Below are positions 7,235 to 41,969 of a stretch of 64,000 nucleotides of DNA, piece by piece. Each line of letters begins with the position of its first letter. Within the stretch, counting starts at the first letter, position 1. Both the position numbers and the translations under genes were made by a program. The notes under the pieces are model-generated. The model did no database searches. It was not told where the DNA came from and was given only the letters and a program-made list of their open reading frames with translations. Source of the DNA: Candidatus Gastranaerophilales bacterium (GTDB taxonomy: Bacteria > Cyanobacteriota > Vampirovibrionia > Gastranaerophilales > Gastranaerophilaceae); the NCBI GenBank assembly GCA_944326585.1, contig CALVEN010000002.1, positions 124,001 through 188,000 on the forward strand, read 5' to 3'.

Positions 7235-8142
7235 CAGTATTATGCGGTGGACTTTCATCAGAAGCCGAAGTTTCAATGCGTTCAGGCAAAGGCTGCTATG
7301 AAGCGCTTAAAAGACTCGGATTTGATAACAGTGAACTTGTTGTTGTAGATAAAGATATTGCTTTAAAACTCAAAGAAGGTCATTACGATTACGCATTCAA
7401 TGCTTTGCACGGCAAATACGGCGAGGACGGATGTATTCAGGGAATTTTAGAAATTTTAAGAATACCATATGCAGGCTGCGGTGTTATGGCAAGTTCTGTT
7501 TGTATGAATAAAGAATTTACCAAAAGAATTCTTTCTACAAATCCCGATATCATTATGGCAAGATCAGCATTTGTTAAAAAAGGCGAAGATATTTTTGAAA
7601 AGACGGCGGATTTGGAATATCCTTTGTTCGTAAAGCCCGTGAGTGAAGGTTCGAGCTTCGGTATGACAAAGGTTGATAAAAGAGAAGACTTAAAAGACGC
7701 TTACGAAACTGCCGTAAAATACAACGACGATGTACTTGTTGAAGAATTTATAGACGGATTTTTTGTAACCGTAGGAGTTCTTGAAGCTGACGGCAAGCCT
7801 TTTGCAACCGAAATTCTTGAAATCAGACCGAAAAATGAATGGTATGACTTTGAAGCTAAATACACTCAAGGGATGTCTGATTTCATATGTCCGGCAAATT
7901 TGTCGCCCGAGGTTACGGAATACGTAAAAGAACTTGCCGTAAAAGCTTTTGAAACAGCAGGCTGCAGCGGAGTTTCAAGAATTGACTTTATGATGAAAGA
8001 TGATATTCCTTATTTGTTGGAAATCAATACAAGCCCCGGTATGACAGCAACAAGCGATTTACCGGCACAGGCTCTTGCTATGGGCATTGATTATGACAAT
8101 TTGGTATTACTGATATTGAACAGCGCAGGATTAAATAAATAA
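7192..8142 (+). CDS. ddl: D-alanine--D-alanine ligase
   Basis: Makes the D-Ala-D-Ala terminus of the peptidoglycan stem. 316 aa with an ATP-grasp fold: VLCGGLSSEAEVSMRSG at the N-terminus, FNALHGKYGEDGCIQG, the ATP-binding FVKPVSEGSSFGMTKV, VEEFIDG, and the magnesium-site end LEINTSPGMT. The start lies inside murB (43-base overlap), but GAGAGG at 7180 precedes it and the N-terminus fits the family. The small Tyr/Phe omega-loop residue (YDFEAKYTQGMS) suggests normal D-Ala rather than D-lactate specificity; that is inference. Confidence 0.95.
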   Translation: MQKITNRIDKNSKIAVLCGGLSSEAEVSMRSGKGCYEALKRLGFDNSELVVVDKDIALKLKEGHYDYAFNALHGKYGEDGCIQGILEILRIPYAGCGVMASSVCMNKEFTKRILSTNPDIIMARSAFVKKGEDIFEKTADLEYPLFVKPVSEGSSFGMTKVDKREDLKDAYETAVKYNDDVLVEEFIDGFFVTVGVLEADGKPFATEILEIRPKNEWYDFEAKYTQGMSDFICPANLSPEVTEYVKELAVKAFETAGCSGVSRIDFMMKDDIPYLLEINTSPGMTATSDLPAQALAMGIDYDNLVLLILNSAGLNK

Positions 8143-8993
8143 TGACAGATTACGAAGAATTTGAAAGTCCGGAAGAACTTTTAAAAACCAAACAACGAGA
8201 GAGAAAAATACGAAAAGGCAAGAAAAAACAAAGCTTTTTCAAAGCTCTGCTGCGTTTTTTAACAGGATGCGGCGTAATTTTCGGAGTCTATTATTTTTCA
8301 ACTTTCAGCGGCTGGTATCTGCCTTCAACAACCTTTAAAAATCCTGATCCCTCGCGTATTCAAATTGTAGATAACAAAATTGTAAAAATTCAAAAAATAA
8401 AAAATGTGATAAAAGATATAGAGGTACCGAAAGTCCCTCTGTATATGGCAAATTTAAACGAGTTAAAATATAAATTAATGTCACTCGCGCCGGTTGATGA
8501 GGTTTATATAAGGAGATATGCTTTTCCTGCAAGAATTTTAATAATTATCAGAGAAGCCATGCCCGTTTTAACTATTGCTCCTGATGAAAAAGTTAAACCC
8601 GTTGCGGCATTCACAAGGGAAGGCCGTTTGATAATCGGATCGGATTATCTGCCGCTGCCCGAAGAATATAAAACCGTTAAAGTTTTATCTTACGGCAATA
8701 AAGGCGATGATTACAGAAAATGGGATGAAAATAAAATAAGACAGATTTTAAGAATTGCCAAATATGTTGAAACTTTTTCGCGTGAAAAAATTGAATACAT
8801 TGATATGCGGAATCCTGACGATATTTATGTAAAAATTGAGACAGTTCCTGTTCGGCTCGGGCAGCTTGATTCAAATATTTATGAAAGGATTAAACGCATT
8901 CCGTCAATTCTGCCTCAAGTCGAAAAAGTCAAGGGCAAGGTTAAATATATTGATTTGAGCTGGGAAAAAGTTAATTATCTGAAATTGGAATAA
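8142..8993 (+). CDS. ftsQ: FtsQ/DivIB-type cell division protein
   Basis: 283 aa. It has a basic cytoplasmic N-terminus (KTKQRERKIRKGKKKQ), one membrane segment at about residues 35-52 (LRFLTGCGVIFGVYYFSTF), a POTRA-like region (about 75-140, with DEVYIRRYAFPARILIIIRE) and the beta domain that follows (VAAFTREGRLI). The start overlaps the ddl stop by one base. FtsQ links the FtsA/FtsZ ring to the FtsW/FtsI septal synthase. Here ftsA and ftsZ do not follow; nadE does, so the division cluster is broken after ftsQ. Confidence 0.85.
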   Translation: MTDYEEFESPEELLKTKQRERKIRKGKKKQSFFKALLRFLTGCGVIFGVYYFSTFSGWYLPSTTFKNPDPSRIQIVDNKIVKIQKIKNVIKDIEVPKVPLYMANLNELKYKLMSLAPVDEVYIRRYAFPARILIIIREAMPVLTIAPDEKVKPVAAFTREGRLIIGSDYLPLPEEYKTVKVLSYGNKGDDYRKWDENKIRQILRIAKYVETFSREKIEYIDMRNPDDIYVKIETVPVRLGQLDSNIYERIKRIPSILPQVEKVKGKVKYIDLSWEKVNYLKLE

Positions 8994-21774: not shown

Positions 21775-22179
21775 ATGAGAATAACACCAAACTACACAAT
21801 GAACACACATTCACAAAATATCCAAAAATGCAATAAACCGAACTTTCAGGCAAATTTAATCCCGCACGTTCAGGGAACCTTAATTATTGAAGCTAAAAAA
21901 ATAAACAAACTTACCGAGCTTTTGGATCAGTTTGCAAATATAAAAAATTGGGGCGACGAAAAATCATTTATAAATGCTATTAAAACACCCGATCACCACA
22001 AAGATCTTCTTGTACTTGATAATTATTATATTTCAAATAAACATCACGGCAACCTCAATGCTCATGCAAAAGATGATATCTTAACCCAATTTTTAAATTT
22101 AAAAGAATACAATGTTCTCAATGCCGAAAAAGATTTACAAGAATTGGCACTAAAAAAAACTATACATCTAAAAGCTTGA
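21775..22179 (+). CDS. Small tagged protein, unknown function
   Basis: 134 aa, not recognised. The start is ATG 21775 with AAGGAG 9 bases upstream; the frame is open to 21736 but without a ribosome site. It begins MRI and carries a PNFQA tag at residues 22-26, the same short motif seen in six or more other proteins of the window. No signal peptide or membrane helix. The rest is soluble and Lys/Asn/His rich (TPDHHKDLLVLDNYY, NKHHGNLNAHAKDD). Its stop codon overlaps the -35 of the next promoter. Confidence 0.75.
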   Translation: MRITPNYTMNTHSQNIQKCNKPNFQANLIPHVQGTLIIEAKKINKLTELLDQFANIKNWGDEKSFINAIKTPDHHKDLLVLDNYYISNKHHGNLNAHAKDDILTQFLNLKEYNVLNAEKDLQELALKKTIHLKA

Positions 22180-22209
22180 AAAAATAACCGTTCTATGATA
22201 TTATAGAAC
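22176..22209 (+). promoter_or_regulatory. Sigma70-like promoter with palindromic operator
   Basis: TTGAAA (22176-22181), 17-base spacer, TATTAT (22199-22204). A perfect 7-bp inverted repeat, GTTCTAT-N6-ATAGAAC (22190-22209), covers the -10, a good position for a repressor. Transcription should begin near 22211, just before the leader peptide. Confidence 0.65.
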
Positions 22210-22225
22210 AACAAAGGAAAAGAAA

Positions 22226-22279
22226 ATGAAAAAAGCGTTAATAAAATTACATCATCATTCACATAGCGCCCTCGGGTAG
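22226..22279 (+). CDS. Histidine-codon leader peptide
   Basis: 17 codons: MKKALIKLHHHSHSALG. Ribosome site AAGGAAAAG lies at 22214-22222. Four of five codons at 22250-22264 are His (CAT CAT CAT TCA CAT). It sits about 15 bases after a predicted transcription start and is followed by mutually exclusive hairpins and a terminator, the classical arrangement of amino-acid operon leader peptides such as HisL. No similarity to enterobacterial HisL beyond the His run. Confidence 0.6.
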   Translation: MKKALIKLHHHSHSALG

Positions 22280-22350
22280 CTATTGAATTGATGTAACGCT
22301 TTACTCAATTTCGTAAAATAGCTTCCCGGGGATCGAGAAGTTATTTTTTT
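22232..22350 (+). promoter_or_regulatory. Predicted translation-dependent attenuator
   Basis: Three structures. (1) AAAGCG (22232-22237) plus TTACATCA (22247-22254) pair with 22289-22302, 14 bp with a 9-base bulge. (2) 22270-22284 pair with 22317-22331, 14 bp with one U-U mismatch (GGGTAGCTATT with AATAGCTTCCC at the core). (3) a terminator at 22320-22342. Structure 2 shares bases with 3, so it acts as antiterminator. A ribosome stalled at the first His codons leaves 22270-22284 free; one at the stop codon covers it. Confidence 0.6.
22320..22350 (+). terminator. Attenuator terminator hairpin
   Basis: CTTC (22322-22325) pairs with GAAG (22337-22340), then a C-A mismatch and CG/CG, loop GGGAT; extended outward by A-U and G-U. 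It is followed by TATTTTTTT at 22342-22350. The stem is modest, as expected for a regulated terminator. Confidence 0.55.
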
Positions 22351-22374
22351 ACGGAATCGGAGGTTTCAAAAATT

Positions 22375-23733
22375 ATGTCATTAGTAAATATAATTTCCGC
22401 CATTGGCAATAACAGCAGCATTTATCCGTTAATAGTCAGGGACTGCGGCATAGAAGTCCCGACAAAAATTGCCATGACATATAACCAGAATAAAGAAGAC
22501 AAAAAAATTGCCTGGCTCGGCGCACGAGAACGCTTTATTGACGAATATTCGGTATCTGCGGTATGGCTCGGAGGAATTCCTTTAATTGATTATACAGGCA
22601 AAAAAATCATCAAACGCTTTAAAAACTTAAATTCCGATGTAAATCTCAAACTTATAAGCGAAGAAGAAAGATATAATAAAAGATTAAAATCCGGCAAAAA
22701 AGTCAAAGAACTTTGTCAGGGCTTTGAATACAATATAAAAAAATTCGCTGACAAACCTGAAGCTCAAGAGGCAATAAAAGATTTGAAAAATGTAAAAAAC
22801 AATAAAAAATTGTTTGAAAGTCTTATGAACACCAAATTTTTAGCCTCTATTATAGTTCCTATCGCCTTAATGGGGTTTGTAATTCCAAAGCTTGTTTTTG
22901 CATCCACCGCAAAAAAAATGGAAAAATATAAAAAGGATCACCCTGACGCAAATTTCGGCAGTCTTACCTTTGGAGGAAAAGATTTTGACCAATTTATACG
23001 CGGCAGAGAAAAAATGACAACATTCCAGGGTGCCGTAACATCCGTCCTTACAAATTTTACGACAGTTCAAAAAATGGCGGTTACTGACGGCGGTTATGCT
23101 GTGGGAAGAATTGTAACCGCACGAAAGAAAAATGAAGCCATTGATCTTGCGTTTAAAATGTCCGGCATGATGTTTTTAAATTTTGTTGCTCCGCACTGGA
23201 TTGAAAAAGCATTCAATAAAATAACAGATGTTAATCTTGACCCGAAAATGTTTGTAAATAAACGTTTTCTGGCAAGCATAAAAAATAATACATTTAAACT
23301 TCCGTCCTCTGACAGCGCAAAAGACTTGATTGATTTTATTGACAACAATCCGAAAGCTTTATTTACCAAACTTGCAGGTCAAAACGGCAAAGTCAAACTG
23401 CTTGAAAACGGCATCAGAGATCCGAGGGCGTATGTTGACATTCCGGAACTCATAAAATTCAAAAATAATATTGAAAAATTCATTAAAAGCGCTGAAGAAA
23501 ACGGCGTAAAAACCAATCTTGTAAAAAAAGCCGGACAAAATAAAGATATAATTAAATTTGCCAATAAATCCTTAAGACTTCGTTCATTGACAATTTTGGC
23601 AAATATCGGCTTAAGCAGCTTCTTATTGGCATATTGCCTGCCAAAAGCACAATTTTTATTCAGGGAATGGTATACAGGTTCCAAACTGGAACCCGGTCTA
23701 ATCAATTCTCCCGAAGAAGATAAAAATGACTAG
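22375..23733 (+). CDS. Membrane protein of a three-member family, unknown function
   Basis: 452 aa, not recognised. GGAGG at 22359 supports the start. Membrane segments at about 154-176 (FLASIIVPIALMGFVIPKLVFA) and near the C-terminus (ILANIGLSSFLLAYCLP), with weaker hydrophobic stretches near 262-275. The central part (YAVGRIVTARKKNEAIDLAF, 241-260, then APHWIEKAFNKI) can be aligned by eye with the proteins at 50495 and 51367, so these appear to be paralogues. It lacks the N-terminal tag. It is the first gene after the His-codon attenuator and precedes two phosphatase-like genes. Confidence 0.7.
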   Translation: MSLVNIISAIGNNSSIYPLIVRDCGIEVPTKIAMTYNQNKEDKKIAWLGARERFIDEYSVSAVWLGGIPLIDYTGKKIIKRFKNLNSDVNLKLISEEERYNKRLKSGKKVKELCQGFEYNIKKFADKPEAQEAIKDLKNVKNNKKLFESLMNTKFLASIIVPIALMGFVIPKLVFASTAKKMEKYKKDHPDANFGSLTFGGKDFDQFIRGREKMTTFQGAVTSVLTNFTTVQKMAVTDGGYAVGRIVTARKKNEAIDLAFKMSGMMFLNFVAPHWIEKAFNKITDVNLDPKMFVNKRFLASIKNNTFKLPSSDSAKDLIDFIDNNPKALFTKLAGQNGKVKLLENGIRDPRAYVDIPELIKFKNNIEKFIKSAEENGVKTNLVKKAGQNKDIIKFANKSLRLRSLTILANIGLSSFLLAYCLPKAQFLFREWYTGSKLEPGLINSPEEDKND

Positions 23734-23765: not shown

Positions 23766-24581
23766 ATGCAAGTCAATATTGTTAAATTATATAATTCCGT
23801 CCCGTTCAGATCATTTACTGACACAACTGAAGATAAACCCACAGTAAGTAATCCGGTAAAAAATGACCCTGCTCCGGTATTTCTTTCGCCCAGCGAACAC
23901 CTTCACCGGGCATATAATGATCCTAAACTTGTTAAAAAAATAACTTATAAAGATTTTGAAAGCCTTGATACCTGGGAAAATTATAAACGCACACTTCTGC
24001 CTACTGCTATTCGCAGGATTAAAAAGAATTGTTACAGAGGAGAAACCTTATTATACACCCCCCGAAGACTGCCCCCGCTAAAATCAAAAGGGGTAACTAC
24101 CGTAATTGATCTTGCAAACATTCCTGACTATGATATTTTATGCAACTTAAAAGGTTTCCAATACTATACCTTCCCAATTTTCTTGGATTACGAAAAAAAA
24201 CCTCCTTTTATAACCCGTCAAGAATTCGCCCAAACCCATAAAATACCTAATACTCATCTCCCCGATGACAGCGAAGAATTTGCATATGATAATGAGGCTC
24301 GTGAATTTATAAACAGTTTTAAGGATTTTGTTTCCGTTGTTAACAAAGGGCATTTTTATATTTGCTGCAAATATGGCAAACTCAGGACAAATACAGCTTT
24401 ATTAATGAATCAGTATTTTAATCCCGAATGGGATGCTCATACCGCTCTACAGGCCGACGATGAACAAATTGAAAAATTCAAAAATTTCTATGAAAATCTT
24501 TCGATACGCGACAAACGTGATTTAGGATTTACCCGGGAATTTGAAGAAAAATTGCGTAAAAAATTAGGCATTACAAAATAA
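23766..24581 (+). CDS. Tyrosine/dual-specificity phosphatase-like protein, tagged (1 of 2)
   Basis: 271 aa. A CX5R phosphatase signature is present at Cys201-Arg207 (CKYGKLRT), following a strand-like GHFYIC and followed by the helix NTALLMNQYF; about 85 residues earlier is VTTVIDLANIP, matching the VIDLR strand of dual-specificity phosphatases. The His normally before the Cys is another Cys. An N-terminal tag VPFRS sits at residues 12-16, and the N-terminal 100 residues are otherwise unassigned. The C-terminus (LGFTREFEEKLRKKLGI) is shared with the next protein. No signal peptide seen. Activity is inferred from the motif only. Confidence 0.65.
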   Translation: MQVNIVKLYNSVPFRSFTDTTEDKPTVSNPVKNDPAPVFLSPSEHLHRAYNDPKLVKKITYKDFESLDTWENYKRTLLPTAIRRIKKNCYRGETLLYTPRRLPPLKSKGVTTVIDLANIPDYDILCNLKGFQYYTFPIFLDYEKKPPFITRQEFAQTHKIPNTHLPDDSEEFAYDNEAREFINSFKDFVSVVNKGHFYICCKYGKLRTNTALLMNQYFNPEWDAHTALQADDEQIEKFKNFYENLSIRDKRDLGFTREFEEKLRKKLGITK

Positions 24582-24598: not shown

Positions 24599-25426
24599 AT
24601 GAAAATTACACCGTTACAAACTTTTAACATGAATTTTACCTCAGGACAATATCATTCAAATAATAATGTCAAAATCCATATTGCGGATGATATATCCGGA
24701 GCTAAAACTCGCAGCGCTATTCGTACACATATATATCCGCAATTGCTGTATGAAGAAGATTCTTATGATGAAATCCCTGATTATGCTGTTTCCATTGAGG
24801 ATGTTTATATTCCTAATATGGAAAACATCGGTGCCGGCTCCTACAAAGGCGCATCATTATTTCGTAACCCGGAATATATTAATCTGCTTAAACAATCAAA
24901 TATAACAATGGTTGTTGATCTTGCGGGATTTGACAAATTAAAAAATGCCTGCAGGGAACATGATATGGAATATTACCGCTATTACGTACCTTTGAATTAC
25001 TGGACCAATCCTATTTTTATTGAAAATCAAACATTATTTGATAAATATGAAAAAGAACTTTATAATCAGTCACTGACCAAAAATGAATTCTTATGCAAAA
25101 TGGAAGATTATAAAGAAAAAATCAGAGCCGAACGCAATGATTTTATGGATGAATTTATAAAATTTACCCACAAAATGAATCAAGGTTCTCTGTATATAGG
25201 CTGCGATTTGGGTGAATTCAGAACACCTAATGTTTTGGCACTCAATGCATATTTTAATCCTAATTGGACCGGGCATAAAAGTGAGCCTACAACTCCATTC
25301 ATCAAGGAATGTATGCAGAATATGTACAGAAACCTTACTGAAAACGACAAACAACGTTTAGGTTTTACAAAAGAATATGATGAACATCTAAAAGAAAAAT
25401 TAGGGATGAAAAAAGGCGGAGAATAA
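24599..25426 (+). CDS. Tyrosine/dual-specificity phosphatase-like protein, tagged (2 of 2)
   Basis: 275 aa, paralogue of the preceding gene and 17 bases downstream, with CAGGAG as ribosome site. CX5R signature at Cys202-Arg208 (CDLGEFRTP), preceded by SLYIG and followed by NVLALNAYFNPNW; ITMVVDLAGFD at about 103-113 is the matching VIDLR-type strand. The His before the Cys is Gly. Begins MKI with a MNFTSG tag at 11-16. It ends LGFTKEYDEHLKEKLGM. The two proteins share motifs and ends but differ in between, so the duplication is old. Confidence 0.62.
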   Translation: MKITPLQTFNMNFTSGQYHSNNNVKIHIADDISGAKTRSAIRTHIYPQLLYEEDSYDEIPDYAVSIEDVYIPNMENIGAGSYKGASLFRNPEYINLLKQSNITMVVDLAGFDKLKNACREHDMEYYRYYVPLNYWTNPIFIENQTLFDKYEKELYNQSLTKNEFLCKMEDYKEKIRAERNDFMDEFIKFTHKMNQGSLYIGCDLGEFRTPNVLALNAYFNPNWTGHKSEPTTPFIKECMQNMYRNLTENDKQRLGFTKEYDEHLKEKLGMKKGGE

Positions 25427-41087: not shown

Positions 41088-41969
41088 TTACCCGAACAGT
41101 CTTTTCTGCAGCTCAAGTGCGGTTTTTGTACGCGCAAGCCCGCCTAAAGAGCTTTCTTTTAATGCAGGTGACATCAATTGTCCGGTCTGATCCATTGCGT
41201 CTACAACTTCGTCCACGGGAATTTTTGATTCCACACCTGACATTGCCATCTCACACGCAGTCATAGCAATAATCGCCATAAAAGGATTCCTTTTAACACA
41301 AGGAACCTCAACCAGTCCGCATACAGGATCGCAGGTTAAGCCTAAAATATTTTTCAAAGCCAGAGCGACCGCGTTCAAAACCTGTTTCGGCGGACTTCCC
41401 AATAATTGTGTAACCGCACCGGCAGCCATGGCTGCTGCTGCGCCGCATTCTGCCTGACAACCGGCAACAGCACCGGCCAATGACACTTTTGCGGAAATTA
41501 TTCTTCCGATTTCACCGGCTGTTATAAGTGCATTAACCTGTCTTTCTTCTGATATATTAAAATCTTCGGCAATCGCTATAATCACAGCCGGAACAATTCC
41601 GCAGGAACCGGCTGTCGGACAGGCTACGATTTTTCCCATTCTTATGTTTTCTTCACTTGTTGCAAGCGCATAAGTAAGAATTTTTTCAAATGTTTTGCCA
41701 AAAACTGCCGGCCGCTCTGCAAACCGTTTTTGCAATTTAGCGCAATCATTCCCGCACATGCCGCTCATTGATAATTCGGTTGATTGAAGTCCAGTTCTGA
41801 TTGCCTCTTTCATTGCCTGAAGGCTTGCCATAGCACATTTTCTAACCTTATTAACAGGCACCTCGCACCATTCGGATTCATAAGCCTGTGCAATCTGCCA
41901 GATACGTTTTCCTCTGGCATTACAAGCTTCCAATAACTGTTCAAATGTATTTATACCTTTTGTTTCCAT
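41088..41969 (-). CDS. sdaAA: L-serine dehydratase, iron-sulfur-dependent, alpha subunit
   Basis: 293 aa. Deaminates L-serine to pyruvate with a 4Fe-4S cluster. The cluster cysteines are seen in CPTAGSCGIVPAV, CDPVCGLVEVPCVKRN and the GMCGNDC segment; GCQAECGAAAAMAAGAV is also typical. The ATG is immediately after the beta-subunit stop, so the two are one transcription unit, beta first. Confidence 0.95.
   Translation of the reverse strand: METKGINTFEQLLEACNARGKRIWQIAQAYESEWCEVPVNKVRKCAMASLQAMKEAIRTGLQSTELSMSGMCGNDCAKLQKRFAERPAVFGKTFEKILTYALATSEENIRMGKIVACPTAGSCGIVPAVIIAIAEDFNISEERQVNALITAGEIGRIISAKVSLAGAVAGCQAECGAAAAMAAGAVTQLLGSPPKQVLNAVALALKNILGLTCDPVCGLVEVPCVKRNPFMAIIAMTACEMAMSGVESKIPVDEVVDAMDQTGQLMSPALKESSLGGLARTKTALELQKRLFG

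Follow-up and report, generated by a model that had tools for sequence, protein, structure and literature searches.

The window, the whole 64,000-nucleotide stretch of a Candidatus Gastranaerophilales genome that was analysed, carries a conserved leader, present in single copy and ahead of a single target gene, in which competing helices covary. The protein encoded by the target gene is nearly free of His, and His pathway genes are missing from the host. Judging from the sequence, the leader is very probably an attenuator of the ribosome-mediated type, sensing charged tRNA-His, that has been re-targeted to this His-purged membrane protein, made when His-tRNA is short. Ribosome stalling, transcription termination and induction by histidine shortage are the steps that we infer.

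Layout of the leader in the window

The leader and the three genes that follow it lie on the forward strand. The leader starts with a match to the sigma-70-type promoter consensus, TTGAAA (22176-22181) and TATTAT (22199-22204), separated by 17 nt and with TG before the -10 box. In many relatives, the gap from the -10 box to the ATG was similar to that of the window. At least 9 of 12 promoter positions matched in 65% of the loci versus 26% of the shuffles, and the putative promoter, taken alone, would be weak evidence. A palindrome, GTTCTAT-GATATT-ATAGAAC, was found at positions 22190-22209, where it overlaps the -10 box; it was not conserved in the relatives read and may be an operator or mark where the upstream transcript ends. 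The leader ORF is preceded by the ribosome site AAAGGAA (22213-22219), and AAAGGAAA is retained within the genus. A Shine-Dalgarno-like site was missing before the leader ORF in about half of the relatives. In many relatives, at loci such as L135, L144, L149, L160 and L190, just 6-9 nt separated the -10 box from the leader ATG and no Shine-Dalgarno was present, which raises the possibility that the peptide is translated from a leaderless mRNA.

The putative leader peptide ORF, as read from the sequence, starts with the ATG at 22226 and has 17 codons, MKKALIKLHHHSHSALG followed by the stop codon (22226-22279). Four CAT codons are present among five codons (22250-22264), at 22250-22258 and 22262-22264. 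In the default fold, a long leader hairpin (22232-22302) pairs the His-codon region with the antiterminator 5' arm and the stretch past the stop codon, and the terminator follows. The first-pass annotation had proposed a protector stem here, between 22232-22254 and 22289-22302; a hairpin does exist at this site, but it is longer and forms one stem across 22232-22302.

The antiterminator 5' arm (22269-22283), which is overlapped by the leader stop codon, pairs with the 3' arm (22317-22331) through 14 pairs at -22.8 kcal/mol. The same 3' stretch serves as the 5' arm of the terminator, which spans 22316-22350 and consists of a hairpin (22316-22329 with 22334-22347) and a T7 tract (22344-22350). 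An anti-SD arm, CTCAATTTCGT (22304-22314), pairs with 22351-22362 and covers the ribosome site of the membrane gene, whose Shine-Dalgarno, GGAGG, was read at 22359-22363. The anti-SD pairing of CAATTC with GAATTGGAG was kept throughout the family. The target gene (22375-23733, ATG at 22375) encodes a helical membrane protein of 452 aa. Two genes for CX5R phosphatase-like proteins follow at 23766-24581 and 24599-25426, and both proteins have a normal His content. The promoter, ribosome site, 17-codon ORF with its His run (four of five codons), antiterminator, terminator and T7 tract had all been placed at 22176-22375 by the first-pass annotation, whose coordinates were off by no more than one or two bases.

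Conservation of the His-codon run

The homologue search covered 118 relatives, and proteins with at least 42% identity to the 452-aa protein were taken as orthologues. Orthologues were found in about 40 of the 118 relatives, and 75 matches were obtained when more distant homologues were included. Upstream DNA was read for 41 homologues, comprising 40 clear orthologues and the distant L046. In all 41, the membrane gene was preceded by a short ORF containing a run of His codons, and nearly all had the leader elements in the same order as the window. At L046, an ORF encoding HHHHN* had its own terminator-like hairpin and was followed by a second His-rich ORF. A second set was obtained from a scan of species genomes and contained 80 named loci, mostly from Candidatus Gastranaerophilales MAGs and largely from the same species as the first 41. 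A stretch of seven codons with three or more His was present at 80 of 80 loci versus 1.25% of the shuffled upstream regions. Leader peptides varied in length and in the residues outside the His run (e.g., MFTPSVKRHHHNHHHCH, MENQILKLHHHHHHSDLRRAVNW and MLIKSIKTQQHHHIHIVPNRLAD), and the run survived insertions and substitutions across relatives. In carrying a codon run for one amino acid, the predicted leader resembles the attenuator class.

Loss of the ORF or of the His codons in relatives had been named beforehand as the outcome that would count against an attenuator. The ORF and the His run were kept, and both alternative helices were kept in nearly all of the relatives that have the gene. 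The possibility that the His codons are a mere by-product of the hairpin sequence was rejected, since 359 CAT/CAC codons versus 5 CAA and 0 CAG were counted in the His span; the retained run and the His-free product also contradict such an origin.

Competing helices and covariation

The structured leader RNA claimed from the sequence of the window was borne out by folding, with -43 kcal/mol compared with -23.9 +/- 3.4 kcal/mol in shuffles (z = -5.61), and 0 of 200 shuffles were as good. RNAalifold recovered the antiterminator unaided, with double changes in 9 of 10 pairs. In alignment A2, 94.6% and 89.3% of the cells were paired in the antiterminator and the terminator, with double compensatory changes in 10 of 12 and 8 of 11 consensus pairs, respectively; the compensatory changes that the first-pass annotation had proposed to look for in relatives are therefore present in both competing helices. 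Covariation of the antiterminator was 0.641, compared with 0.316 when shuffled and at most 0.271 with a slid partner, and the pairing of the terminator also exceeded shuffles and slid partners. Since both helices show double changes and exceed these controls, the shared arm has evolved for two different partners. The antiterminator and terminator are predicted to be mutually exclusive helices with a common arm, and both are under selection.

In a swap test, the arm of each species was paired with its own partner and with partners from other species. Own arms paired better in the antiterminator, terminator, ribosome-site stem and leader hairpin, with z values of -11.5, -11.7, -6.9 and -5.9, respectively. 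The permutations used for the swap and covariation tests ignore relatedness, and the outcome was unchanged when the close relatives of the window were left out. These values indicate that the ribosome-site (anti-SD) stem is under selection as well. At least 6 T in 8 followed the hairpin in 60 of 79 leaders, and the window has a clean T7, as expected of a putative intrinsic terminator with a U tract of the attenuator class. In about one quarter of the leaders, the T tract was weak or absent, so termination would not be universal.

Proposed mechanism and simulated ribosome positions

When His-tRNA is ample, the ribosome would get to the stop codon inside the antiterminator 5' arm, the terminator would form, the ribosome site of the membrane gene would be hidden, and the gene would be off. 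The gene would also be off when the leader is not translated, as the long leader hairpin would let the terminator form. When His-tRNA is scarce, the ribosome would stall at the first His codons, open the leader hairpin and free the antiterminator arm. Formation of the antiterminator would then disrupt the terminator and expose the ribosome site, and the gene would be on. Being His-purged, the product could be synthesised even with histidine absent. The switch probably acts at two levels, by terminating transcription and by concealing the ribosome site.

The footprint of the ribosome was masked and the RNA was refolded at equilibrium, a simulation in which kinetics are ignored. For the window, the expected number of antiterminator pairs was 13.6 when the A site held the first His codon and 0 when it held the stop codon, and the Shine-Dalgarno was free at 0.78 and 0.27 with the ribosome at His1 and at the stop, respectively. 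When the footprint was moved along the ORF, the effect was seen mainly with the A site from codon -1 to codon +3 relative to the first His. The earlier proposal that low charged tRNA-His gives readthrough thus reappears as the switch predicted by masked-ribosome folding. Among 36 leaders, the direction of the switch was consistent (p = 3e-11, relatedness ignored). The antiterminator gained more than 2 pairs at His1 in 17 of the 36 and about half did not flip, so kinetics or details of the footprint matter. The leader stop codon falls within or just past the antiterminator 5' arm, which is the position that the model requires. In these simulations, a stall at the His codons would favour the antiterminator and a ribosome at the stop codon would favour the terminator, with the full switch predicted in the window and an incomplete switch, or none, in about half of the other leaders. 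One of the two alternative folds would also hide the downstream ribosome site, as in ErmC-like systems.

A mainly translational attenuator is a possible reading of the same data, which we hold tentatively: the sensor would still be the His codons, exposure of the ribosome site would be the conserved output, and termination would be secondary or lineage-specific. It would account for the selected ribosome-site stem, for the shared hairpin being kept where the T tract is weak, and for the effect on the Shine-Dalgarno, which a ribosome at His1 left freer than one at the stop codon in 19 of 36 leaders and less free in 1. However, the window with its T7 and about three quarters of the leaders have the T-rich stretch that an intrinsic terminator needs.

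Distribution and gene neighbourhood

Of 194 genomes, 59 gave a match to the covariance model, each with exactly one copy of the leader, and these 59 belong to a single family; the counts are approximate because a few divergent leaders, such as those of G007 and G024, were missed by the model. All 10 of the checked matches outside the training set had a His peptide of the same type and the same membrane gene, and at all loci read the leader was found only ahead of the membrane gene. The gene order relA, yggU, leader with membrane gene, uracil-DNA glycosylase and Na/Ala symporter was held in several genera. The two CX5R genes were confined to the genus of the window among the loci compared, which leaves the membrane gene as the only conserved target. 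The first-pass annotation had assigned the membrane gene and both CX5R genes to the attenuator; its first assignment agrees with the relatives, but the CX5R genes are genus-specific. As a regulated unit they were dropped, being found nowhere outside the genus and having a normal His content, and they are probable genus-level passengers.

An Rfam search of the region gave chance-level matches only, with no His leader family up to E = 10, and the T-box covariance model did not match the leader region. No match was obtained in a search of a phage collection. Around the His genes of two relatives (L205 and L206), no His leader was seen, and literature searches on leader peptides in Gastranaerophilales or Melainabacteria returned nothing relevant. 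As there is no Rfam match and the leader is not ahead of his genes, it lies outside the known his leader family.

The membrane protein and histidine synthesis in the hosts

Among 80 orthologues with a mean length of 434 aa, 64 contained no His, and one, two and three His were found in 10, 5 and 1 of them, respectively; the protein of the window has 2 His in 452 aa. The pooled His content was 0.07% in the orthologues versus 1.15% in 30 paralogues of like composition and 1.78% in the genes of the window. Depletion of other residues was not seen in the orthologues, with the lowest other ratio to the paralogues being 0.72. When 106 ORFs of at least 250 aa were ranked by His content, the orthologues filled most of the low end. 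Two further ORFs in the window, at 8142-8990 (283 aa) and 41091-41969 (293 aa), also had no His, which is probably due to chance at such length. The His purge, itself a reading of sequence, is independent evidence for histidine shortage as the condition under which the protein would be used.

Searches of Pfam, NCBIfam and PDB sequences found no relative of the membrane protein. Foldseek and VIA-align found no usable relative, and the best VIA Z of 6.4 is in the range expected for unrelated helical proteins. The AlphaFold2 model was helical and fairly confident, with four very long helices (pLDDT 81, pTM 0.76), and the protein has two clearly hydrophobic segments. Its sequence indicates an integral membrane protein specific to Gastranaerophilales. 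Its role would most likely be to cope with or relieve histidine famine at the membrane; at a guess, it may help to obtain or conserve histidine, or protect the envelope, during such a famine.

The genome from which the window was taken, at 99.7% completeness, lacks HisB as well as true HisA and HisF, so the host is a probable His auxotroph, and most leader carriers are probably His auxotrophs as well. HisB was found in 3 of the 59 genomes with a leader by the covariance model versus 24 of 58 other genomes of the family (Fisher p = 2e-6, phylogeny not corrected), and three leader genomes thus keep HisB. One genome of the same genus, G012 (locus L004), has HisB and HisA/F genes on contig C10, and its leader reads HYHSH with one His replaced; this is a single case.

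The leader might instead sense loss or damage of tRNA-His, brought about by a toxin that cleaves tRNA or by an inhibitor of the synthetase, and the His-free protein would then be a stress or defence response. A ribosome on the leader would be blind to whether tRNA-His is uncharged or destroyed, a His-free product is equally compatible with both, and no transporter or enzyme family was recognised for the membrane protein. We consider this unlikely, as the strong link to missing His biosynthesis suggests nutrition and the conserved surroundings (relA, yggU, uracil-DNA glycosylase and Na/Ala symporter) contain no toxin or defence gene. That the short ORF encodes a functional His-rich peptide, for example a metal-binding one, with the downstream gene as a mere neighbour, is very improbable. 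The His run does recur in every peptide, but peptide length and the other residues differ between relatives, covarying and mutually exclusive helices surround the ORF, the stop codon lies inside the antiterminator, and the next gene is the same one throughout and is His-purged.

A second leader ahead of the paralogue

A second, unrelated conserved leader peptide, approximately M..NLRRNxIIKANAPIVKLMNLIWGL*, was observed at loci L086-L115, and the copy in the genome of the window is at G000:C4:172379-172402 (L113). The codon match to its C-terminal KLMNLxWGL* occurred exactly once in 45 of 99 genomes, and the reversed-pattern control gave 0. In 30 of 30 loci read, this leader was just upstream of an ORF of about 450 aa that encodes the paralogue of the membrane protein. 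At L050 and L051, an NRRYI ORF was found upstream of the WGL-type leader. In appearance, the KLMNLxWGL* leader is closer to an arrest-type peptide than to a codon-run leader. An attenuator based on Arg or Trp codon runs was unsupported, as neither residue was strongly depleted in those paralogues.

Returning to the attenuator of the window, on balance we lean towards a histidine-famine device, in which a his-type attenuator, kept or evolved where His synthesis has mostly been lost, would drive a His-purged membrane protein that is made as the sensor fires; with the KLMNLxWGL* leader of the paralogue, the whole protein family would be under ribosome-reading leaders. The leader and the His-purged protein point to a novel histidine-starvation response in common gut bacteria, and the leader offers a first handle on a large uncharacterised protein family. 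The coupling of sensor codons with a residue-free product provides independent, sequence-readable evidence for the signal, and it suggests a search rule, namely to seek proteins depleted of the residue encoded by their own leader.

Comparison with known systems

Codon-run attenuators are standard devices for the synthesis or import of the amino acid that they sense. The HisL-type attenuator of the his operon, found in enteric and other bacteria, shares with the present leader a His-codon leader peptide, a mutually exclusive antiterminator and terminator, and readthrough predicted at low charged tRNA-His. In contrast, the leader described here would control a lineage-specific membrane protein and not histidine synthesis or transport, matches no Rfam family, and is found in a host without the his genes tested. 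Its terminator region would also hide the ribosome site of the target, and the target is His-purged. As in ErmC-type translational attenuators, the position of the ribosome on a leader ORF would set the exposure of the downstream ribosome site; however, the signal here would be a codon run in place of an arrest sequence that depends on an antibiotic, and a terminator is present as well in most members.

A precedent for a re-targeted codon-run leader is that of Salmonella mgtCBR, in which the Pro-codon ORF mgtP reads charged tRNA and the genes controlled are outside the synthesis of that amino acid (PMC3641672). That system differs in its Pro codons, its tandem ATP-sensing ORF and its Mg transport and virulence genes, and it is unrelated in sequence and structure. 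Amino acid biosynthetic enzymes are poor in their cognate amino acid, a low cognate bias (PMC4209129), and in both cases proteins needed in the shortage of an amino acid are poor in that residue. That bias is statistical and concerns biosynthetic enzymes, whereas the present case is a single protein outside biosynthesis that almost entirely lacks the residue that its own leader would sense. To our knowledge, an equally complete purge of a residue has no counterpart in any non-biosynthetic protein. The novelty lies in the target and the taxon, and in the link between sensor codons and a residue-purged product.
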